From assembly GCF_022899355.1 (NCBI RefSeq), contig NZ_JALJCK010000001.1:62001-126000 (forward strand): a DNA stretch of 64,000 nucleotides. Direction: 5' to 3'. The position numbers and the translations under genes were made by a program. A model generated the notes under the pieces. The model saw only the letters and a list, made by a program, of their open reading frames with translations, had not been told where the DNA came from and ran no database searches. Positions 6,367 to 37,946 of this stretch are shown piece by piece (within the stretch, counting starts at the first letter, position 1; the number at the start of each line of letters is the position of its first letter). This stretch comes from Shinella yambaruensis. Lineage in GTDB: Bacteria; Pseudomonadota; Alphaproteobacteria; Rhizobiales; Rhizobiaceae.

Positions 6367-6431
6367 ATCAAGATGACCACGAGCCTGAGGGGAGGGCGCC
6401 TCTTCTTCGATTGGTCGGCCAGCCTTGTATT

Positions 6432-6446
6432 GTTCCCTTTTTGTTC
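6432..6446 (+). promoter_or_regulatory. LexA box (SOS operator), GTTC-N7-GTTC
   Basis: GTTC (6432-6435), CCTTTTT, GTTC (6443-6446) is an exact match to the alphaproteobacterial LexA operator GTTC-N7-GTTC. It ends 13 bases before the start codon of the glycosylase gene, a position where bound LexA would block the promoter. Confidence 0.78.
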
Positions 6447-6459
6447 CTATATTGACGGA

Positions 6460-7233
6460 ATGCAGATGGTATTCGATTTTGGCGCCATCGCGGACATGGC
6501 GTGGGTGCGGGAACAGCTGAGGTTCTTTTTCGGTCGCCCCGACCGGGTCTGCGCGCGAACGCCGATCGGCCAGCTTGTGAAATCGTCGATCAGCAACCGC
6601 ACGCTGGACGAAGTCTCTCTGGCCGCCTATCAGCGGCTCGTGGAGGCCTATCCGGAATGGCCCGCTCTCGCAGCGGCGTCGACCGGCGATGTCGAAGCCC
6701 TGATCGGTGATGTCGCCTTTCCCGATGTCAAGGCGCGGCATCTCGGCGATGCGCTTCGCGTCATAGGCGCCTGTTATCCGGATTTCGACCTGGACTTCCT
6801 CGGCCGCCTCGGCGTTGCCGAGGCGCTCGCGTGGCTGGAGCGCCTGCCCGGCGTCGGCCGCAAGGTCTCGGCCTCCACGCTCAACTTCAGCACGTTGGAC
6901 ATGCCGGCATTCGTCGTGGACACGCACGTCCTGCGCGTGTTGGGCCGGTACGGCTTCGTCCGGAACAAGGCCGACACGCGGACCGCTTATGACGCGGTGA
7001 TGGCGGCGGCGCCTCGATGGAGCGCGGCCGAACTGGCCGAGCTTCACATTCTGATGAAACGTCTTGGTCAGACCATCTGCCGGCACGGCCGTGCCCGCTG
7101 CCCCGATTGTCCGATCCGCCGGCGCTGCAAGGCGGCCGCAACCTCTGCCCGAAGGCCGGTGGGCTTGAGAGGGCGTAATATGGATCATCGGCAGGGACCT
7201 GCGCGGGAACAGCGTGGCGGCTGGAAGGAATGA
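6460..7233 (+). CDS. Endonuclease III-like DNA glycosylase (HhH-GPD, 4Fe-4S)
   Basis: A 257-residue base-excision repair glycosylase/AP lyase of the Nth superfamily. The helix-hairpin-helix motif is LERLPGVGRKVSAS with the catalytic lysine at about residue 135. The catalytic aspartate is Asp154 in FVVDTHVLRV. The C-terminal iron-sulphur loop has four cysteines at 207, 214, 217 and 223 (C-x6-C-x2-C-x5-C), exactly the Nth spacing. It differs from housekeeping Nth in its N-terminus and loose sequence, so it is a paralogue of unknown substrate. The start at 6460 is chosen because it follows a LexA box by 13 bases. It lies upstream of the EndoQ-UvrD fusion, which is likely its partner in repair. 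Confidence 0.85.
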   Translation: MQMVFDFGAIADMAWVREQLRFFFGRPDRVCARTPIGQLVKSSISNRTLDEVSLAAYQRLVEAYPEWPALAAASTGDVEALIGDVAFPDVKARHLGDALRVIGACYPDFDLDFLGRLGVAEALAWLERLPGVGRKVSASTLNFSTLDMPAFVVDTHVLRVLGRYGFVRNKADTRTAYDAVMAAAPRWSAAELAELHILMKRLGQTICRHGRARCPDCPIRRRCKAAATSARRPVGLRGRNMDHRQGPAREQRGGWKE

Positions 7234-7409
7234 ATCGGTACGATCCGGACCTGGAAACCGAAGGAAACGGGTCCGCCCATCGGCGACTTTCTTCCGCGTC
7301 GGCTGCATCACACAACATATCGGCTCGAATGCTGTGATTTGTGCCGTTTATCCGTGATCCGCCTTGTCTGCGCGTGCTATCAAGCAGTGCCGGATGTATG
7401 CCCCACAAG

Positions 7410-10400
7410 ATGAATGCGCCTGTCATGACGTTCCTTGCCGATCTGCACCTCCACTCGAAATATTCCCGGGCCACGAGCCGGGATCTCGATCTTGAGCGCC
7501 TGTTCTGGTGGGCGGCGCGCAAGGGGGTGCGGGTGGTCGGCACCGGCGACTGCGTGCATCCGGTGTGGCTCGCCGAGATCAAGGACAAGCTGGTGCCCGA
7601 GGGCAACGGGCTCTTTCGCCTGCGGCCCGAAATCGAGGCGGCGCTGTGGGAGACGCTTCCGCCGGCCTGCCGGCGGCCGGTCTCCTTCATGATCTGCACC
7701 GAGATTTCGACCATCTACAAGAAGGGCGACAAGACCCGGAAGATCCACCACCTGATCTATGCGGCCGATCTCGACGCCACCGACCGGCTGGCGGCGAGCC
7801 TTGCGCGCATCGGCAACATCGCCTCGGACGGCCGCCCGATCCTCGGCCTCGATTCGCGCGATCTGCTGGAGATCGCGCTGGAGTCCGGACCGGATTCCTA
7901 TCTCGTCCCCGCCCATATCTGGACGCCATGGTTCGCCGCGCTCGGCTCGCAGTCGGGCTTCGATTCCATCGAGGAATGCTACGGCGACCTTGCCGGGCAT
8001 ATCTTCGCGGTGGAGACGGGCCTGTCGTCCGACCCGGCCATGAACTGGCGCATCTCCTCACTCGACCGCTTCCGCCTCACCTCCAATTCCGACGCCCATT
8101 CGCCCGGCAAGCTCGGCCGCGAGGCGACGCGCTTTTCCTGCGAGCCGGACTATTTCGCCATCCGTCGCGCGCTCGAAACCGGCGACGGCTATGTCGGCAC
8201 GGTCGAGTTCTTCCCGGAGGAAGGCAAATATCACATGGACGGGCACCGCGCCTGCGGCGTGCGGCTCGACCCCAAAGAGACGATCGAACTCGGCGGCCGC
8301 TGCCCGGTCTGCGGACGGCCCGTCACCGTCGGTGTGGCGCATCGCGTCGAGGCGCTCGCCGACCGCAAGGAGGGCGCGGCGGTTCCTGCGACGGCGGGAA
8401 AGGTCACAAGCCTCGTGCCCCTGCCGGAAATCCTCTCGGAGATCGTCGGCAGCGGCGTCGCCTCGAAAGCCGTGACCCACACCTATGACCGCGCCATTGC
8501 CGCGCTCGGGCCGGAGCTTGCCGTGCTGGAGGAAATGCCGGCCGAGGATATCGCCAGGGTCGACCCGCTGCTCGGCGAGGCCGTGACGCGCCTGCGCTCC
8601 GGAGAGGTCATCCGGCAGGCGGGTTATGACGGGGAATACGGCGTCATCCGGCTGTTTCAGGACGGGGAGCTGGACCGTCTTGCCGGAAACCAGCTGCTGT
8701 TCGACGCGCCGTTGTCCAGCCGCGCGCGCCGGGCAAAACCGGCAGCGAAAGACACGGCATCGGGCGATGCCCCGGCATTTCCTGAAGCCGCGCCGGCGAT
8801 GCAGCCGTCGGGCCGCAGCGGCGTCCTGGCCGGGCTCGACCCCGATCAGGCGCGCGCTGCCGAGGTTGTCGACGGACCGCTGATGGTGATCGCCGGGCCC
8901 GGCTCCGGCAAGACGCGTATGCTCACCCACCGCATCGCCCATCTGGTGCTGGAATGCGGCGTGCCGGCCGGCTCGTGCCTCGCCGTCACCTTCACGCGCA
9001 AGGCGACGGAGGAGCTGCGCACCCGCCTCACGGGGCTTCTCGGCAGGAAGGCGGATGCCGTGGCGGTGCACAGCTTCCATTCGCTGGGCCTGGCGATCCT
9101 GCACGCGCATGCCGGCCGGGCCGGTCTCGCGGAGGACTTCCGCATCGCCCGCGAGGCGGAGCGCAAGGCGGCGCTGGCCGAAGCGCTCGGCGTCAGCGAT
9201 ACGCGCGCCGCCCGCCTCGTCAAGGCGGTCTCGGTGCTCAAGCGCAGCGGCGGGAAGGGTGCGGGTGAGGAAGCGGAGGCCCGCATCGTCCTCGACCGGA
9301 TCGGACGCGCGCAGGGCTGGGTCGATTTCGACGATCTGGTTCTTCTGTCGGCCGATCTTCTCGATAAGGACGCGGAGATCGCCGCCGCGTGGCGCACGCG
9401 CTTCCCGCACATCGTCGCCGACGAGTTTCAGGACGTGGACGAGCAGCAATATCGCCTGCTGCGGCTGTTGGCCGGGGACAACGGCAACCTCTGCGTCATC
9501 GGCGATCCCGATCAGGCAATCTACGGCTTTCGCGGGGCGGACGCCGCCTGCTTCGCGCGTTTCGGCCGGGACTTCCCCGCAGCCAGGACCCTTCGGCTTC
9601 AACGCAACTATCGCTCGACCGGCACCATCGTGAAAGCGGCGTCTGGCTTCATCGGTGCGCCTTCGTCAGGCCTGACACGCCCGATGGGCGAGCCGATCAT
9701 TGCCCATGCGGCAGCGAGCGAGGCAGCGGAAGCGGAGTTCGTCGCGGCGACCATCGAAAGCCTGCTCGGCGGCCATGACCTGCTCGCGGCCAATCGCGCG
9801 GGTGGCGTGACGTCATCCGGCCGGCCGCTCGGCTTTGCCGATTGCGCCGTGCTCTACCGCACCGACGCGCAGGCAGCGGCGCTGCGGACCGCCTTCGACC
9901 GCGCCGGCATTCCGTTCATGAAAAGCTCGCCGGCTCCCATCGCCGGCCATCCCGGCGTGACCGCGATCCTCGACGGGCTGGACGGGGCGGAGGGGCAGGA
10001 CCTTGCCGCGCGCATCGGGCAGGCGGCGGAAGACGCCCGCAGGGCGCGGAGGGCCGACGCCGCCGCGCTCGCAGAGGCGAGAGGCTGGCTCACCGCGCTC
10101 TCCGGCTCGGTTCAGGTGGCCGGCGATCCCGTCCTGCTTGGCGAAGCGGTGGCGCTTTCCTCCGAGGCCGATTTCCGCGATGAGCGTGCCGCGCGCGTCA
10201 CGCTCATGACCATGCACGCGGCCAAGGGTCTGGAATTTCCAGTCGTATTCGTGGTGGGTATGGAAGCCGGACTGGTGCCGTTTTCATGGGGGACGGCGAC
10301 GCCGGATGAGGAGGCGACGCAGGACGAGGAGCGGCGGCTGTTCTATGTCTCCATGACCCGCGCCAAGGACAGGCTGTTCCTGATCCGCGCCAAGGAGCGG

Positions 10401-10529
10401 TTCTGGCGCGGTGCAGTGCGCGCGCTACCGGCTTCGCCTTTCCTCGGACAGATCGCCGCGGACCTGATCGTCAGCGAGAGTGCCAGCGGACGAAAAAGCA
10501 GGCAGTCACAGCAGCTCAACCTTTTTTGA
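7410..10529 (+). CDS. EndoQ-like PHP nuclease fused to UvrD/Rep-type helicase
   Basis: A 1039-residue two-part protein. The first 420 or so residues match endonuclease Q, which cuts beside deaminated bases: a PHP metal site begins ADLHLHSKYS and continues through VVGTGDCVHP, SNSDAHSP and the zinc-finger-like CPVCGRP, ending with an EndoQ-type RSGEVIRQAGYDGEYGVI. A Pro/Ala linker leads to a superfamily 1A helicase: Walker A AGPGSGKT (about 495-502), IVADEFQDVDEQQYR (II), VIGDPDQAIYGFRG (III), LQRNYRST (IV), MTMHAAKGLEFPVVF (V) and RRLFYVSMTRAKDR (VI), so ATPase and unwinding should be active. The exact start (7341, 7398, 7410 or 7425) is uncertain; the PHP fold needs only residues from MTFLADLH. 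It lies 176 bases downstream of the SOS-linked glycosylase. Confidence 0.88.
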   Translation: MNAPVMTFLADLHLHSKYSRATSRDLDLERLFWWAARKGVRVVGTGDCVHPVWLAEIKDKLVPEGNGLFRLRPEIEAALWETLPPACRRPVSFMICTEISTIYKKGDKTRKIHHLIYAADLDATDRLAASLARIGNIASDGRPILGLDSRDLLEIALESGPDSYLVPAHIWTPWFAALGSQSGFDSIEECYGDLAGHIFAVETGLSSDPAMNWRISSLDRFRLTSNSDAHSPGKLGREATRFSCEPDYFAIRRALETGDGYVGTVEFFPEEGKYHMDGHRACGVRLDPKETIELGGRCPVCGRPVTVGVAHRVEALADRKEGAAVPATAGKVTSLVPLPEILSEIVGSGVASKAVTHTYDRAIAALGPELAVLEEMPAEDIARVDPLLGEAVTRLRSGEVIRQAGYDGEYGVIRLFQDGELDRLAGNQLLFDAPLSSRARRAKPAAKDTASGDAPAFPEAAPAMQPSGRSGVLAGLDPDQARAAEVVDGPLMVIAGPGSGKTRMLTHRIAHLVLECGVPAGSCLAVTFTRKATEELRTRLTGLLGRKADAVAVHSFHSLGLAILHAHAGRAGLAEDFRIAREAERKAALAEALGVSDTRAARLVKAVSVLKRSGGKGAGEEAEARIVLDRIGRAQGWVDFDDLVLLSADLLDKDAEIAAAWRTRFPHIVADEFQDVDEQQYRLLRLLAGDNGNLCVIGDPDQAIYGFRGADAACFARFGRDFPAARTLRLQRNYRSTGTIVKAASGFIGAPSSGLTRPMGEPIIAHAAASEAAEAEFVAATIESLLGGHDLLAANRAGGVTSSGRPLGFADCAVLYRTDAQAAALRTAFDRAGIPFMKSSPAPIAGHPGVTAILDGLDGAEGQDLAARIGQAAEDARRARRADAAALAEARGWLTALSGSVQVAGDPVLLGEAVALSSEADFRDERAARVTLMTMHAAKGLEFPVVFVVGMEAGLVPFSWGTATPDEEATQDEERRLFYVSMTRAKDRLFLIRAKERFWRGAVRALPASPFLGQIAADLIVSESASGRKSRQSQQLNLF

Positions 10530-10666
10530 AACTCCGCGCCAGACCAGCGCCACAGACCGTTTCCACTCGCCGGGGAAGGTGCCGGCTGCTTTGGCGCCTC
10601 GATAATACTTAGCAAGTTGGCGAAGTTTCTCTTGCGTGCCGGGCGCATCGCATGATAGTTAGCATT

Positions 10667-11008
10667 ATGACTAAGCATGATCCCGACCTCTCGCTGCTTT
10701 TCCACGCTCTGGCCGATCCGACCCGTCGATCGATCCTGACACGTCTGGCGGAGGGGCCGGCGGGGGTTACGGATTTGTCCGAACCCACGGGGCTGCGTCT
10801 GCCCACGGTGATGCGGCACCTTTCCGTGCTGGAGGAGGCAGGGCTGATCGTCACGTCCAAGGACGGGCGGATACGCACCTGCGCCATCGTGCCGGCGGCA
10901 CTGGAGCCGGTTCGCACATGGCTCGATGAACAGCGGGCCATATGGGAAGCCCGGCTGGATAGGCTGGAAGCCTTCGCGACGAGGGCGATCAAGGAGCGCA
11001 AGCAATGA
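10667..11008 (+). CDS. ArsR-family winged-helix repressor
   Basis: A 113-residue ArsR/SmtB-type regulator: LFHALADPTRRSILTRLAEG opens the fold, and the recognition helix is TGLRLPTVMRHLSVLEEAGL followed by the wing. No cysteine metal site is seen, so it is unlikely to sense metals. Regulators of this subfamily are typically co-transcribed with SRPBCC (AHSA1) proteins, as here: the ATG of the next gene overlaps this stop by four bases. A dyad TTAG-N8-CTAA (10659-10674) spans the start codon and may be its own operator. An upstream ATG at 10652 is in frame but lies within the promoter-like region. Confidence 0.86.
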   Translation: MTKHDPDLSLLFHALADPTRRSILTRLAEGPAGVTDLSEPTGLRLPTVMRHLSVLEEAGLIVTSKDGRIRTCAIVPAALEPVRTWLDEQRAIWEARLDRLEAFATRAIKERKQ

Positions 11009-11928
11009 TATCGAAACGCAACCCCGAGCGCATGTCTGCGGCACCCGATCCTGCGGACGACCGCTTTGCGACGCTGACCTTCGAGCGGACCGTGGCCGTG
11101 CCCTTACCGGTGCTGTGGCAGGCATGGGCGGCTCCGGCCGCGCGGGCGGTCTGGTCTGCCCCGACGCCCTCCGTCACCGTGGAGTTCCTGGAGGCCGACA
11201 CCCGGGTGGGCGGGCGCGAAATCTCGCTTTGCAAGGTCGAGGGCCAGCCGGACATTCGTTGCGAGTGTGGTTGGCTCGAATTGCAGCCGGGGCTGCGCAG
11301 CGTGAACTACGAGACGGTCTCCTGCGGGGGCGTGACGCAGTCGGCGGCTCTGGTGACGGCGGATTTCTCCGGCACGGACGAAGGCAGCCGAGTGATCGTG
11401 ACGGTGCAGCTTTCCTCGCTTGCCGAAAACATGGAGGCCGGCTACCGGCAGGGCTTCAATGCCGGGCTGGACAATCTCTCCGCGACGGCCAGGCGAACCA
11501 TGGTCCTGCAACGGGTGATCCAGGCCCCGCGAAGCATCGTCTGGGACAACTGGATGAATGCCGAGACGCTGCCGCAATGGTGGGGGCCCGACGGGTTTTC
11601 CTGCCGCACGAAGCGGATTGATCTCAGAGCGGGCGGCGAATGGGTCTTCGACATGATCGCGCCGGATGGCAAGATCTTCCCGAACCACCACCTCTATACC
11701 ACGGTTCAACCCGAGGAGAGGATCGCCTATACGCTGCTATGGGGCGAGAACGGCCCGAAGCATGCTGACGCCTGGGCATCGTTCGAGGATCAGGGCGAGG
11801 GAACAAGGGTGACGCTGGGCATGGTGTTCAGCACGGAGGCCGAGTTCCAGGCGGCGAAGGGCTTCGGCGCAGTCGAACTGGGCCTGCAGACGCTGGGCAA
11901 GCTGGAAGTCTTTATCAAATCACGATGA
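11005..11928 (+). CDS. Tandem SRPBCC (AHSA1-like) domain protein
   Basis: A 307-residue fusion of two SRPBCC (START-like) domains. The first (about 20-160) begins ATLTFERTVAVPLPVLWQAW; the second (about 165-305) is a canonical AHSA1 domain beginning VLQRVIQAPRSIVWDNWMNA with LPQWWGPDGFSC. Each fold forms a hydrophobic ligand pocket; the ligand is unknown. Most relatives are single-domain proteins. The start codon overlaps the ArsR stop (ATGA), which implies translational coupling. The pair is a common regulator/effector operon in rhizobia with no defined pathway. Confidence 0.82.
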   Translation: MISKRNPERMSAAPDPADDRFATLTFERTVAVPLPVLWQAWAAPAARAVWSAPTPSVTVEFLEADTRVGGREISLCKVEGQPDIRCECGWLELQPGLRSVNYETVSCGGVTQSAALVTADFSGTDEGSRVIVTVQLSSLAENMEAGYRQGFNAGLDNLSATARRTMVLQRVIQAPRSIVWDNWMNAETLPQWWGPDGFSCRTKRIDLRAGGEWVFDMIAPDGKIFPNHHLYTTVQPEERIAYTLLWGENGPKHADAWASFEDQGEGTRVTLGMVFSTEAEFQAAKGFGAVELGLQTLGKLEVFIKSR

Positions 11929-25415: not shown

Positions 25416-27470
25416 GCGCCCCGCCGCGTTGTCCGGTAAGCTAGAACAGTTCGGGTGAGGCAGAAATCAAAAGCGCCTCCTCCTGCCGCATAGACATGTT
25501 AAGTGTTCCGCCTAGTGGCGGAAGGAGGGACAAGATAAAGCGGATTTTGGAGATAGGGAGAATGAGGAGTGTGAACCCTCCAGTACAGAAAAGGTGAGGC
25601 GCAACCAACGCCTGAAAAAATGGCAGGAATTAACAAACCTCGATTGCAAACTTCGAGCGCTATTGCGATGGTATGGGAGAGAATCGGGAGAATATTATGC
25701 ATCGTATTGTTCACGCCCACCTGAAGAGTTTTTCTGAGAATTTTGGATATATCTCTGTTGCTGAATCAATTCAGTTTGAAAAGTTTTGTACTTTTAGTGT
25801 TTTATCTTCTCGGTATTCCGCTGATTTTGACCTTGATGAGGTGACCACTGGTGACGTGGACGATGGAATTGATGGTGTTGCTGTAGTCATTGATGAAACA
25901 CCGTGCCCGTCACCTGAGGAAGCAGAAGGCATATTTAAGGAGCCAAGAAGGAATCACGATGTTGAGGTCGTTTTTGTTCAAGCAAAGGGCGGTGAACGCT
26001 TTGATTTAGGTGATTTTTTGAAGTTCAAAGACGGAATCTTGAGATTTGTCACCGCCGAGGTTTATTCTTTAAGTGATGATGTTTTGAATGACGCTAAAGC
26101 TGCATTCGATGTGGTGATATCCAATGTGCCAAAAGTTCGAAATGGAAGACCATCTGTTTTCGCGTATTATATCACGACAGGAATTTATCAAAACCCCGCA
26201 GAGCTGGAGCGCGCCCGAATAGAATTTGAAGAACAGCTTTTAGAGTTAGGGTACTTTAATGAGGTTGAGGTTCGGTTTCTTGGGCGTGATGAGCTTACGA
26301 AACTATGGGTTGGAACATATTCCGGTACGCAGGCTAGCTTGACTGCATTGAGTAATGCGGCTCTTCCAGAGATTTCTGGAATTGATGAGGCTTATCTTGC
26401 CGTAGTGAAAGCCGCTGACTTAGTTGATCGCCTTCTCATTACGGAGGATGGAAATCTTAGGGGGCAGGTCTTTGAGGAAAATGTGCGGGCTTATTTAGGG
26501 GATGACAATCCAGTAAATAAATCGATATCTGAGACTATAAAGTCTAATTCTGCTTCCAGGTTTCCTGTTTTAAATAACGGAATTACTATTGTAAGCCCTG
26601 ATGTAAAACTTCAGGGTAGCGTTTTCCACCTAAAAAATTATCAGATAGTCAACGGCTGCCAGACCTCAAACGTGCTTTTTGAGAACCGTGCACATCTGGC
26701 GGAAATTATGGTGAATGTGAAAATCGTGGAAACTCAGGACGAGGATGTTTTTGCTGATTTGGTTAGAGCCACAAATAGCCAGTCCAGAGTTGATGATGCA
26801 CAATTTTTATCTTTAAAGCCAGTAGTTAGGAGGGTGGAGCAATATTTTAACTCAGTCGATTCCGAAGATAAAGAGAAAAAATTGTATCTAGAGCGTCGAG
26901 ATAGGCAATACGTTGGGCAGGATATATCTGCTATTCGTGTTTACTCTCTGCATAATGCTGCTAAGTGTGTTGCGTCTATGTATTGTGCAAGACCTGAGCT
27001 CGCTTTTAGGTATCCGAAGCAGATGTATGAGGAACTTGGCGGCTTCATTTTTGCTGACGATGTGAGGGAAATAGTATTTTATTCTGCGTGTTTAACGATG
27101 CATAGATTTAATCTTTTGGTTTCTAATAGTGTTATACCTCAGAATATGAAAAAATTTAAATGGCACATTCTTGCTGTTGTTAAGGCAATTATATGCGGAA
27201 AGACAAATAATAAACTTGGTAGTCGTGAAGTGGAAAAGGAGGCGGCAAAAATAGTATCATCTATGGAAAAGCATGGTCCGGAGGCCACATCTATATTTGA
27301 AAGAGCGACACGCGTATGTGTGAGTCTTGGTGAGGTTACAAATGATCGGTTGAAGAGACAGGCAATTCTCACTGAGATGTTGGAAAGTATTTAATTTACG
27401 ACCATTTCGCATAGCTAGGTCGAGAATCTATAGCAATCAAAAACGAACGCTTAATCATTTATTTTCGACG
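25416..27470. other. AT-rich inserted segment carrying an AIPR gene
   Basis: From about 25,440 to 27,470 the base composition drops visibly compared with the flanking prmB and thrS genes, and codon usage changes (AAA, GAT, TTT and ATT replace GC-ending codons). The left spacer (25416-25696) holds a small hairpin TCCGCC-TAGT-GGCGGA near 25506-25522 but no gene. I found no integrase, tRNA or convincing flanking direct repeat. Confidence 0.65.
25697..27394 (+). CDS. AIPR-family protein (abortive-infection phage resistance type)
   Basis: A 565-residue soluble protein. The AIPR hallmark is the pair RFPVLNNGITIV (about residues 288-299) and KNYQIVNGCQTSNVLFEN (about 313-330), followed by DLVRATNSQSRV. 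The N-terminal third contains VEVVFVQAKGGERFDLGDFL, whose V-Q-A-K-G resembles the QxK end of a PD-(D/E)xK nuclease-like fold. AIPR proteins are associated with phage defence; mechanisms are mostly unresolved. ATG 25697 has GGGAG upstream. Strongly AT-rich, hence probably transferred. It has no partner gene, and no restriction or methylase gene is nearby. Confidence 0.83.
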   Translation: MHRIVHAHLKSFSENFGYISVAESIQFEKFCTFSVLSSRYSADFDLDEVTTGDVDDGIDGVAVVIDETPCPSPEEAEGIFKEPRRNHDVEVVFVQAKGGERFDLGDFLKFKDGILRFVTAEVYSLSDDVLNDAKAAFDVVISNVPKVRNGRPSVFAYYITTGIYQNPAELERARIEFEEQLLELGYFNEVEVRFLGRDELTKLWVGTYSGTQASLTALSNAALPEISGIDEAYLAVVKAADLVDRLLITEDGNLRGQVFEENVRAYLGDDNPVNKSISETIKSNSASRFPVLNNGITIVSPDVKLQGSVFHLKNYQIVNGCQTSNVLFENRAHLAEIMVNVKIVETQDEDVFADLVRATNSQSRVDDAQFLSLKPVVRRVEQYFNSVDSEDKEKKLYLERRDRQYVGQDISAIRVYSLHNAAKCVASMYCARPELAFRYPKQMYEELGGFIFADDVREIVFYSACLTMHRFNLLVSNSVIPQNMKKFKWHILAVVKAIICGKTNNKLGSREVEKEAAKIVSSMEKHGPEATSIFERATRVCVSLGEVTNDRLKRQAILTEMLESI

Positions 27471-35610: not shown

Positions 35611-37668
35611 TCAGATATCAAGGTTGTCGGCGAAGACGGCGCGCTCCTGGATGAAGCGGAAGCGGGCTTCCGGCTTGGTGCCCATCAGGTCGTCGACCGC
35701 CGTGCGCGTGCCCTCGAAGTCGACGTCGTCGATCGCCACCTTGAGGAGCGTGCGCTTCTTCGGATCCATCGTCGTTTCCTTGAGCTGCGCCGGCAGCATC
35801 TCGCCAAGGCCCTTGAAGCGGCCGATCTCGACCTTGCCGCGGCCGTTGAACTCGGTGCGCATCAGCTCCTCGCGGTGCGGGTCGTCGCGCGCATAGAGCG
35901 TCTTGCCGCCCTGGCTGATGCGGTAGAGCGGCGGCACGGCGAGATAGAGGTGGCCGCCGCGGATGAGGTCGGGCATCTCCTGGTAGAAGAAGGTGATGAG
36001 CAGCGAGGCGATGTGGGCACCGTCGACGTCGGCATCGGTCATGACGATGACGCGCTCGTAGCGCAGGTCGTCCTCGCGGTATTTCGAGCGCGTGCCGCAG
36101 CCGAGCGCCTGCACGAGATCGGAGATCTGCTGGTTGGCACCGAGCTTTTCCCGGCCGGCGCTGGCGACGTTGAGGATCTTTCCGCGGAGCGGCAGGATGG
36201 CCTGGTTGGCGCGGTTGCGCGCCTGCTTGGCCGAACCGCCGGCCGAATCGCCCTCGACGATGAAGAGCTCGGCGCCCTCGGCGGAATTCTGCGCGCAGTC
36301 GGCCAGCTTGCCGGGCAGGCGCAGCTTGCGCACGGCGGTCTTGCGGCTGACTTCCTTTTCCTTGCGGCGGCGCAGGCGCTCCTCGGCGCGCTCGATCACC
36401 CAGTCGAGCAGCTTGGCGGCTTCGCCCGGATTGTCGGCGAGATAGTGGTCGAACGGGTCGCGCAGCGCGTTCTCGACGATGCGCTGGGCCTCGACGGTGG
36501 CGAGCTTGTCCTTCGTCTGGCCGACGAATTCCGGCTCGCGGATGAAGACGGAGAGCATGCCGACGGCCGAGATCATCACGTCGTCGGTGGTGATGGCGGC
36601 GGCGCGCTTGTTCTGCGTCAGCTCGGCATAGTTCTTCAGGCCCTTGGTCAGCGCGATGCGCAGGCCCGCCTCATGCGTGCCGCCGTCGGCCGTCGGGATG
36701 GTGTTGCAATAGGAGTGGATCAGCGAATCGCCGCCATACCAGGTGACGGCCCATTCCAGCGAGCCGTGCCCGCCGGATTTCTCGCTCTTGCCGGCGAAGA
36801 TCTCGCGGGTGACGGTGTGCTCCTTGCCGAGCGTCGCCTGGAGGTAGTCCTTGAGGCCGCCCGGGAAGTGGAAGACGGCCTTTTCCGGCGTTTCGGAGCC
36901 TTCCGGCAGCAGCGCGGGGTCGCAGCTCCAGCGGATCTCGACGCCGCCGAAGAGATAGGCCTTCGAGCGGGCCATGCGGAAGACGCGTCCCGGATCGAAA
37001 TGCGCGTGCGCGCCGAAAATCTCCGGGTCCGGATGGAAGCGCACCTTCGTGCCGCGCCGGTTGTGCACGTCGCCGAGCTCTTCGAGCGGGCCGAGCGGCT
37101 TGCCGCGGGAAAAGCGCTGGCGGTAGAGCTTCTTGTTGCGCGCGACCTCCACTTCGAGAAGGTCGGAGAGGGCGTTGACGACCGAGACGCCGACGCCGTG
37201 CAGGCCGCCCGAGGTCTCGTAGGCCTTGCCGTCGAACTTGCCGCCGGCGTGCAGCACGGTGAGGATGACCTCCAGCGTGGATTTTCCCGGCATCTGCGGA
37301 TGGTTTTCCACCGGAATGCCGCGGCCGTTGTCGGTGACGGTCAGAAAGCCCTCGGCATCGAGATTGACCTCGATGAAATTGGCGTGGCCGGCGACGGCCT
37401 CGTCCATCGAGTTGTCGATGACTTCGGCGAAGAGGTGGTGCAGCGCCTTCTCGTCCGTGCCGCCGATATACATGCCGGGGCGCATGCGGACCGGTTCGAG
37501 GCCTTCCAGCACGCGGATCGCCGAGGCGTCATAGCCGCCGGTGCCTTCGCTCGGCGGGGCGGGGCGTGCCTCGCGGGCAGGGGCGGCCGCCGCGACCGGC
37601 TTTTCGACCGGCGGCGCTGCGGGCTGGGAGGGCATGTTGGCGAAGAGGTCGTTGCTGTCGTCTTGCAT
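35611..37668 (-). CDS. parE: DNA topoisomerase IV subunit B
   Basis: A 685-residue ATPase subunit of topoisomerase IV, which decatenates chromosomes with ParC. A low-complexity Pro/Ala tail (about 1-45) precedes the GHKL ATPase: EVIDNSMDEAVAGHANFIEV, TDNGRGIPVENHP and GGLHGVGVSVVNAL. The TOPRIM domain has ELFIVEGDSAGGSAKQARNR and VIVMTDADVDGAHIASLLIT. The KALHHLFAEVIDNSMDEA wording and length mark ParE rather than GyrB, which has an extra insert and is longer. ATG 37668 is chosen; the frame extension to 37737 is not conserved. Confidence 0.94.
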   Translation of the reverse strand: MQDDSNDLFANMPSQPAAPPVEKPVAAAAPAREARPAPPSEGTGGYDASAIRVLEGLEPVRMRPGMYIGGTDEKALHHLFAEVIDNSMDEAVAGHANFIEVNLDAEGFLTVTDNGRGIPVENHPQMPGKSTLEVILTVLHAGGKFDGKAYETSGGLHGVGVSVVNALSDLLEVEVARNKKLYRQRFSRGKPLGPLEELGDVHNRRGTKVRFHPDPEIFGAHAHFDPGRVFRMARSKAYLFGGVEIRWSCDPALLPEGSETPEKAVFHFPGGLKDYLQATLGKEHTVTREIFAGKSEKSGGHGSLEWAVTWYGGDSLIHSYCNTIPTADGGTHEAGLRIALTKGLKNYAELTQNKRAAAITTDDVMISAVGMLSVFIREPEFVGQTKDKLATVEAQRIVENALRDPFDHYLADNPGEAAKLLDWVIERAEERLRRRKEKEVSRKTAVRKLRLPGKLADCAQNSAEGAELFIVEGDSAGGSAKQARNRANQAILPLRGKILNVASAGREKLGANQQISDLVQALGCGTRSKYREDDLRYERVIVMTDADVDGAHIASLLITFFYQEMPDLIRGGHLYLAVPPLYRISQGGKTLYARDDPHREELMRTEFNGRGKVEIGRFKGLGEMLPAQLKETTMDPKKRTLLKVAIDDVDFEGTRTAVDDLMGTKPEARFRFIQERAVFADNLDI

Positions 37669-37946
37669 GGGCCGTTCAGATTTTGTTCCGTTTGCCAGCT
37701 TTCCCGCCGGTCCATGGCGGACCGGGGTCTGGCGCAAAAGAGGTCATTGCGCGAATCACCTGCGACTCTGCCAGATTCCGCGGGCTTTCGCGATGCCGGG
37801 GCGGCGTGCCGTCCCGTCCGTCGCGTGCGCCGCGGGGTGGCGTCACCCGGCCTGCAGGATGCGCCAAGCCGCGCCAACCGCCGGCGGAGGATTGCGTTGC
37901 GGGCGGGCGGATGGCAAGTATCGCTGCCTTCAGGGAGCCACAGTTC

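Follow-up and report, generated by a model that had tools for sequence, protein, structure and literature searches.

Does a DNA glycosylase gene that sits just in front of a nuclease-helicase gene work with it, or can the larger protein do its work alone? The question is raised by a stretch of 64,000 nucleotides from Shinella yambaruensis (assembly GCF_022899355.1, contig NZ_JALJCK010000001.1, positions 62,001-126,000, forward strand), called here the window, in which an endonuclease III (EndoIII)-like HhH-GPD DNA glycosylase of 257 residues (6460-7233, plus strand) is followed on the same strand by a gene joining an endonuclease Q (EndoQ)-like nuclease to a UvrD-type helicase (7425-10529). 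An earlier note on this DNA had taken the pair for a novel, SOS-linked two-gene repair module. Our analysis led us to a different reading: the fusion is probably a self-contained, clamp-targeted nick-and-unwind excision enzyme for deaminated bases, and it lies beside a separate, SOS-controlled glycosylase.

A search through 84,980 species genomes placed the fusion among its relatives; it gave at least 590 pattern matches, 588 of them confirmed; the best 80 of the confirmed ones are the named loci used below (L026-L105), and for that reason they lean to close relatives. The helicase lies in the same frame as the EndoQ part in 73 of these 80 loci (67 complete, one with a broken frame, five running off the contig), as judged with a UvrD query whose start was approximate, while the motif counts given below used the exact sequence. 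The gene is therefore no product of an assembly join, since the architecture recurs in those 73 relatives and in four other genomes of the class. Contamination is also unlikely, because the gene lies on a contig of 777,776 bases that carries lexA as well, despite a contamination rating of 4.42% for the assembly.

The start of the gene needed revision. The earlier note had placed it at 7410, which gives 1039 residues and is the start from which residues are numbered here. In the relatives the protein starts with the methionine whose codon lies at 7425, and in L026, the closest relative, the ATG corresponding to 7410 is out of frame, so that 7425 is the probable start (1034 residues). The gap to the glycosylase, put at 176 bases in the note, is indeed short and on the same strand but would measure 191 bases (7234-7424); a consensus scan found neither a terminator nor a promoter in it.

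Domains, active sites and distribution of the fusion

The gene is a genuine single-frame fusion of EndoQ-like and superfamily 1A (SF1A) helicase domains, as the earlier note had proposed: the match to PfuEndoQ spans residues 10-417 (E 4e-47), and the protein from residue 472 onward matches PcrA, UvrD and Rep. The N-terminal domain (residues 6-427, 7425-8690) has the EndoQ fold. By alignment, E98 (7701-7703), H113 (7746-7748) and H169 (7914-7916) correspond to the PfuEndoQ essential zinc ligands E76, H84 and H139, the last of which also forms part of the pocket wall, and G204 and S206 (8019-8027) correspond to the pocket residues G169 and S171. All five are kept in 68 of 68 fusions compared, a set that covers many phyla and whose members share ancestry, so that these counts, here and below, are not independent. 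The roles of the PfuEndoQ residues, including the exclusion of T and A from the pocket by G169 and S171, come from PMC8307549. A zinc ribbon follows (H279-X2-C282 and C298-X2-C301, 8244-8312), its three cysteine positions kept in all 68 fusions and position 279 occupied by histidine in 67 and by cysteine in one; at this position the archaeal EndoQ ribbon has a cysteine where the fusion has His. Taken together, the alignments support an EndoQ active site that is intact and conserved. Two alphaproteobacterial fusions, L021 and L023, read DVQIHS at the PHP HxH motif, with glutamine for its first histidine and the other ligands kept.

A linker (residues 428-467, 8691-8810), mostly disordered in the predicted model (predicted local distance difference test, pLDDT, below 50 at 427-462), leads into the helicase, and the stretch from F416 to L476 that contains it varies between 49 and 157 residues across the 68 fusions. 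The SF1A (UvrD/PcrA/Rep-like) helicase itself (residues 468-1030, 8811-10499) has all of motifs I-VI, as the earlier note had seen, among them a Walker A sequence GPGSGKT (residues 496-502, 8895-8915), whose K and T are present in 68 of 68 fusions, and a motif II DEFQD (residues 671-675, 9420-9434), whose D, E, Q and D are equally invariant. Its 2B region (residues 837-925, 9918-10184) is shortened: alignment to 1pjr gives about 88 residues, compared with about 172 in PcrA, and the distance from P835 to H936, 102 residues in the window's fusion, ranges from 86 to 144 in the set. The 2B domain holds monomers of Rep and UvrD in check, so a cut-down 2B might let the tethered motor work alone.

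The earlier note had the domains right and missed the tail. The protein ends in QLNLF (residues 1035-1039, 10512-10526), a candidate β-clamp-binding motif at the end of a disordered tail (pLDDT below 50 at 1026-1039). The β-clamp consensus is QL(S/D)LF, natural motifs follow Q-phi-x-[LM]-[FL] or a six-residue form, and the clamp motif of Pol V is QLNLF (PMC11139829). Of the 68 fusions, 57 have QLxL[FLIMV] in their final 10 residues; among 800 other open reading frames (ORFs) of at least 150 residues from the same loci only 3 do, and the split-off helicases of L060 and L065 account for two of these. With the stricter published motif, looked for in the last 12 residues, the figures are 49/68 and 4/800, and in 10 of the 19 fusions that miss it the residue after QLxL is I, M or V. 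A partnership with sliding clamps is already known for EndoQ, since PCNA stimulates the archaeal enzyme, which binds it through a C-terminal PCNA-interacting (PIP) box, and some bacterial EndoQ homologues end in clamp-type motifs (PMC4858679); a clamp motif placed beyond a fused helicase, at its distal end, does not appear in the EndoQ literature that we searched.

How the remaining loci differ from the 73 fusions bears on the history of the gene. EndoQ and helicase are adjoining ORFs in two of the 80 (L060 and L065), the locus DNA contains no helicase in four (L028, L036, L048 and L083), and L037 ends too early for the helicase to be judged. The two split loci (L060:10001-12930 and L065:10001-12929) are from Gastranaerophilales, and their separate helicase ORF keeps a QLSLF or QLTLF tail. 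In Devosia nitrariae (L028:10001-11332) EndoQ stands alone: it shares 79% identity with the EndoQ domain in the window, and 21 kb of DNA gave no helicase match, which makes it a natural loss of the helicase.

The family is scattered. The window's own genome is the only one with an EndoQ match among 199 from its family; in the class 6 of 385 genomes have one, and in the phylum 19 of 299, in both cases with the own genome included and from genome draws that overlap and lean to the window's family. Ten of the 19 matches lie in frames of more than 1000 residues. By the origins given on the tree, the helicase-bearing loci come from Pseudomonadota, Actinomycetota, Myxococcota, Planctomycetota and Verrucomicrobiota, and also from Acidobacteriota, Elusimicrobiota, Melainabacteria, Binatota and Poribacteria. 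That tree, built from 90 EndoQ domains by a quick method, with an unproven midpoint root and several long stand-alone branches, places the stand-alone forms at the base and four lone helicase-less rows among the fusions. It needs at least five changes between the fused and the stand-alone state, and it fits one fusion followed by losses, given that root. We saw no conserved partner gene among the 80 loci: at its largest, a cluster of recurring neighbours takes in 8 of them, and the leading clusters, judged by eye, resemble synteny of close kin, or else antisense or spurious frames.

Proposed mechanism and the order of its steps

We consider nick-then-unwind the best mechanism for such a protein. 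The EndoQ domain would recognise a deaminated base (uracil, hypoxanthine or xanthine) or an abasic site and nick the strand 5' of the lesion, leaving a 3'-OH; cleavage by EndoQ at this place gives a 3'-OH and a 5'-phosphate (PMC4357722). At the nick the tethered SF1A helicase would load on the intact strand, move 3' to 5' over the downstream duplex and peel off the strand whose first base is the damaged one. The QLNLF tail would dock the enzyme on the β clamp, and a polymerase on that clamp could then extend the freed 3'-OH.

Several observations weigh against this reading. The fusion scores 157.3 bits with TIGR00375, below the curated cut-off of 326.6 (which none of ten further genomes with fused or stand-alone relatives reached either), and its helicase reaches 345 bits of the 911.2 set for PcrA, 290 of 1144 for UvrD and 288 of 951 for Rep; for these reasons we name the first domain EndoQ-like and not a TIGR00375 equivalog, and the second an SF1A domain and not an equivalog of PcrA, UvrD or Rep. 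The first histidine of the HxH motif is glutamine in two of the 68 fusions, 11 of the 68 are without QLxL[FLIMV] in the last 10 residues (some with variants such as QMSLF, two with the motif further in), and none of 11 stand-alone relatives examined by eye ends in a clamp motif. Uracil-DNA glycosylase is present in 12 of 14 fusion-bearing genomes, and the fusion is therefore not the sole route for uracil. (Endonuclease V matches, absent from the window's own genome and found in 2 of those 14, were counted with no fusion-free set alongside, and we draw nothing from them.)

Two more of these observations concern the independence of the fusion from glycosylase and SOS response. Three loci (L042, L061 and L088) have matches 26-29% identical to the window's glycosylase several kb from the fusion, which we presume to be ordinary EndoIII or MutY. 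The 250 bases upstream of the fusion, compared in 85 stretches (two duplicates included, the L021 = L032 and L024 = L062 contigs, and two stretches shorter than 250 bases), contain LexA operators of other types than the one in the window in one or two stretches each: GAAC-N4-GTTC in one (0.2 expected), GAAC-N4-GTTY in two (0.38 expected) and RAAC-N4-GTTC in two (0.68 expected). A few non-alphaproteobacterial fusions could thus still be under SOS control.

The last point against nick-then-unwind is that the helicase could precede the nuclease. A clamp-tethered helicase would then expose single strands, which EndoQ would scan and cut at deaminated bases at or behind replication forks, and the clamp tail, the long flexible linker and the ability of EndoQ to cleave uracil and hypoxanthine also in single-stranded DNA (PMC11354406) would all suit a protein of this kind. 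Cutting a single-stranded template, however, would break the fork, a risk that the nick-first order avoids, and we hold such fork patrolling to be unlikely.

The glycosylase and its pairing with the fusion

Whether the self-contained enzyme that we favour has a dedicated partner depends on the gene in front of it. The protein encoded at 6460-7233 matches Pfam HhH-GPD (36.2 bits), and its best solved-structure match is Deinococcus EndoIII-1 (E 2.6e-32). K135 (6862-6864) and D154 (6919-6921) occupy the places of the EndoIII lyase lysine and catalytic aspartate, which we take to be K120 and D138 in E. coli EndoIII, and the iron-sulphur motif C-X6-C-X2-C-X5-C is made up of C207, C214, C217 and C223 (7078-7128). 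All of these residues are the same in the six sequences aligned (window, L026, L106, L107, L108 and L111). The protein scores 118 of the 400 bits required by NF053634 and 53.9 bits with TIGR01083 (nth), and because the latter's cut-off of 211.7 is not reached we call it EndoIII-like and not Nth itself.

A LexA-type operator, GTTC-N7-GTTC, lies at 6432-6446, 28 bases 5' of the glycosylase start. One such site is unremarkable taken alone. The box is found at -27 in the three nearest glycosylases (L106, L107 and L108, at 69, 51 and 50% identity) and, of six more distant relatives, in one (L111, 36%), the other five (36-41%) being without it. The window's own genome has 141 sites of this type, and from the part of them that was listed we took by eye 12 with AT-rich spacers. 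NCBIfam naming covered six of the 12: five flank lexA, uvrA with ssb, DNA polymerase IV, uvrC and recQ (UvrA and one RecQ scoring under the cut-offs because the stretches were cut), and beside the sixth (L155) lies a gene that resembles ImuA by eye and has no NCBIfam match. Three further AT-rich sites lie at C1:181007, C2:10068 and C15:29708. At the level of sequence, LexA control of the glycosylase is well supported by a box kept in near orthologues and by the same motif beside the genome's own SOS-type genes, and to this extent the SOS link drawn in the earlier note stands.

A second GTTC-N7-GTTC in the window (37674-37688) lies 5 bases before the likely start codon, an ATG at 37668, of a parE-like, gyrase-B-type gene on the minus strand; this gene, which encodes 685 residues, is probably another LexA target.

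The rest of the module proposed in the earlier note fared less well. According to that proposal, glycosylase and fusion make up one dedicated, SOS-induced repair system, and the two genes do share a strand, a short gap with no terminator by consensus scan, and a well-supported LexA box in front. They also share a history. When the 13,964 bases of L026 were compared with the window by blastn (E 1e-10), a single match was obtained, 83.4% over 4156 columns, which covers operator, glycosylase and fusion (window 6420-10540, plus strand) and nothing else of the L026 locus. Because the two are alike exactly there and nowhere else, the pair has travelled together once, as a precise 4.1 kb unit.

Beyond L026, the pairing dissolves. 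A close homologue of the glycosylase adjoins the fusion in that locus only (85.6% identity), 1 of the 80, in a search of the locus DNA, which covered at least 2 kb upstream in 73 loci and less than 2 kb in seven, and none was found in four further loci of the class of 13-19 kb each. The earlier note had itself named a fusion mostly without the glycosylase in relatives as telling against its proposal, and this is the distribution found. GTTC-N7-GTTC stands within 250 bases upstream of none of the 85 fusion stretches (0.36 expected), of which only the roughly 12 alphaproteobacterial ones can fairly be tested for an operator of this type, other types matching at most two; even in L026 one base of the box is changed. 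Conversely, a search of 199 genomes of the family at E 1e-30 found the glycosylase or a relative in 10, one of them the window's own, and none of the others has the fusion. As a general arrangement the two-gene system is thereby rejected, and as a dedicated system in any form we regard it as quite unlikely. It is the fusion itself that is widespread, and the pairing that is rare.

We conclude that the glycosylase is a separate SOS-controlled base-excision repair enzyme, a local companion, and that the two genes are not a system in general. We read them as recent hitch-hikers, a self-sufficient fusion having presumably been inserted downstream of an SOS promoter, or the other way round; the fusion may nevertheless be co-transcribed with the glycosylase in the window. 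Both genes are absent, at the limits used, from two genomes of the same genus (G075 and G157). The block lies in a variable stretch, since from about 12039 the downstream flank matches these genomes at about 80%, while on the upstream side the matches are few, short and dispersed. A mobile element carrying the block was considered and rejected: the EndoQ part has no match at E 1e-5 in 50,697 phage and 72,556 plasmid records, and none of ten ORFs around the block is an integrase or transposase. The glycosylase has three plasmid matches, at 36-42% identity.

Directly downstream of the fusion, an ArsR-type regulator is followed by an AHSA1/SRPBCC protein (10652-11928). Farther away, an AIPR-family gene (25673-27394; Pfam PF10592, 148 bits) lies in a stretch of 47% GC amid 61-71% GC, likely a recent arrival; its tie to phage resistance is by family name only.

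Gabija likewise pairs a nuclease with a UvrD-like helicase; among defence nucleases, however, none is known to us that depends on a clamp motif. That the fusion is an anti-phage nuclease-helicase destroying phage DNA with uracil or other odd bases is highly improbable: its scattered distribution and horizontal movement, the match of PADLOC GajB models to the helicase part (up to 239 bits) and the mention of an antiviral role for bacterial EndoQ (PMC8307549) would suit it, but GajB matches only the generic helicase, recurring neighbours reach at most 8 loci of 80 per cluster and look like close-kin synteny or spurious frames (by eye, with no defence library), and the EndoQ part is without a match in the phage and plasmid records. 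As to a possible GajA partner beside the helicase, the ten neighbouring ORFs compared with Pfam, a part of all neighbours, included no nuclease match.

Significance and known systems

To our knowledge the steps that follow the EndoQ nick are unsettled. In a fusion of this kind, found across many phyla, a helicase and the replication clamp stand out as the likely next actors, and both can be tested within a single molecule. It also points to alternative excision repair of deaminated bases being more frequent among bacteria than the EndoQ papers assume; in the excerpts available, those papers treat EndoQ as a mainly archaeal enzyme that only some bacteria have, and they deal with stand-alone forms. 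We recognised no published description of an EndoQ-helicase fusion in the literature searched, which most subscription papers lie outside. For the wider proposal that the fusion represents a one-protein, bacteria-wide and so far undescribed excision pathway, in which a clamp-tethered EndoQ nick is coupled to built-in UvrD-type unwinding and which arose probably by a single ancient fusion, spread horizontally and was sometimes lost to stand-alone EndoQ, the chances seem to us about even; in one polypeptide it would do the job that falls to MutL, clamp and UvrD in mismatch repair.

The component families of the fusion are all known already. Compared with endonuclease Q (Pyrococcus furiosus, Thermococcus kodakarensis, Bacillus pumilus; TIGR00375, COG1379), it has an attached helicase, a clamp motif placed at the helicase end and of the bacterial β-clamp type, 7 extra residues between the ligands E98 and H113, and a score under the TIGR00375 cut-off. 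From UvrD, PcrA and Rep it differs in its N-terminal EndoQ, a 2B region about half as long, a QLxLF C-terminal tail and scores under the curated equivalog cut-offs. The glycosylase, for its part, shares the HhH-GPD domain, the catalytic Lys and Asp and the iron-sulphur motif with Deinococcus EndoIII-1 and NF053634, from which it is set apart by the LexA operator in front and by scores under the NF053634 and nth cut-offs. The closest parallel in logic is methyl-independent mismatch repair, where a clamp-contacting MutL endonuclease nicks and a UvrD-type helicase unwinds (PMC8744996). The fusion would follow the same logic in one polypeptide, with an unrelated nuclease and with a lesion in place of a mismatch, an analogy without homology.

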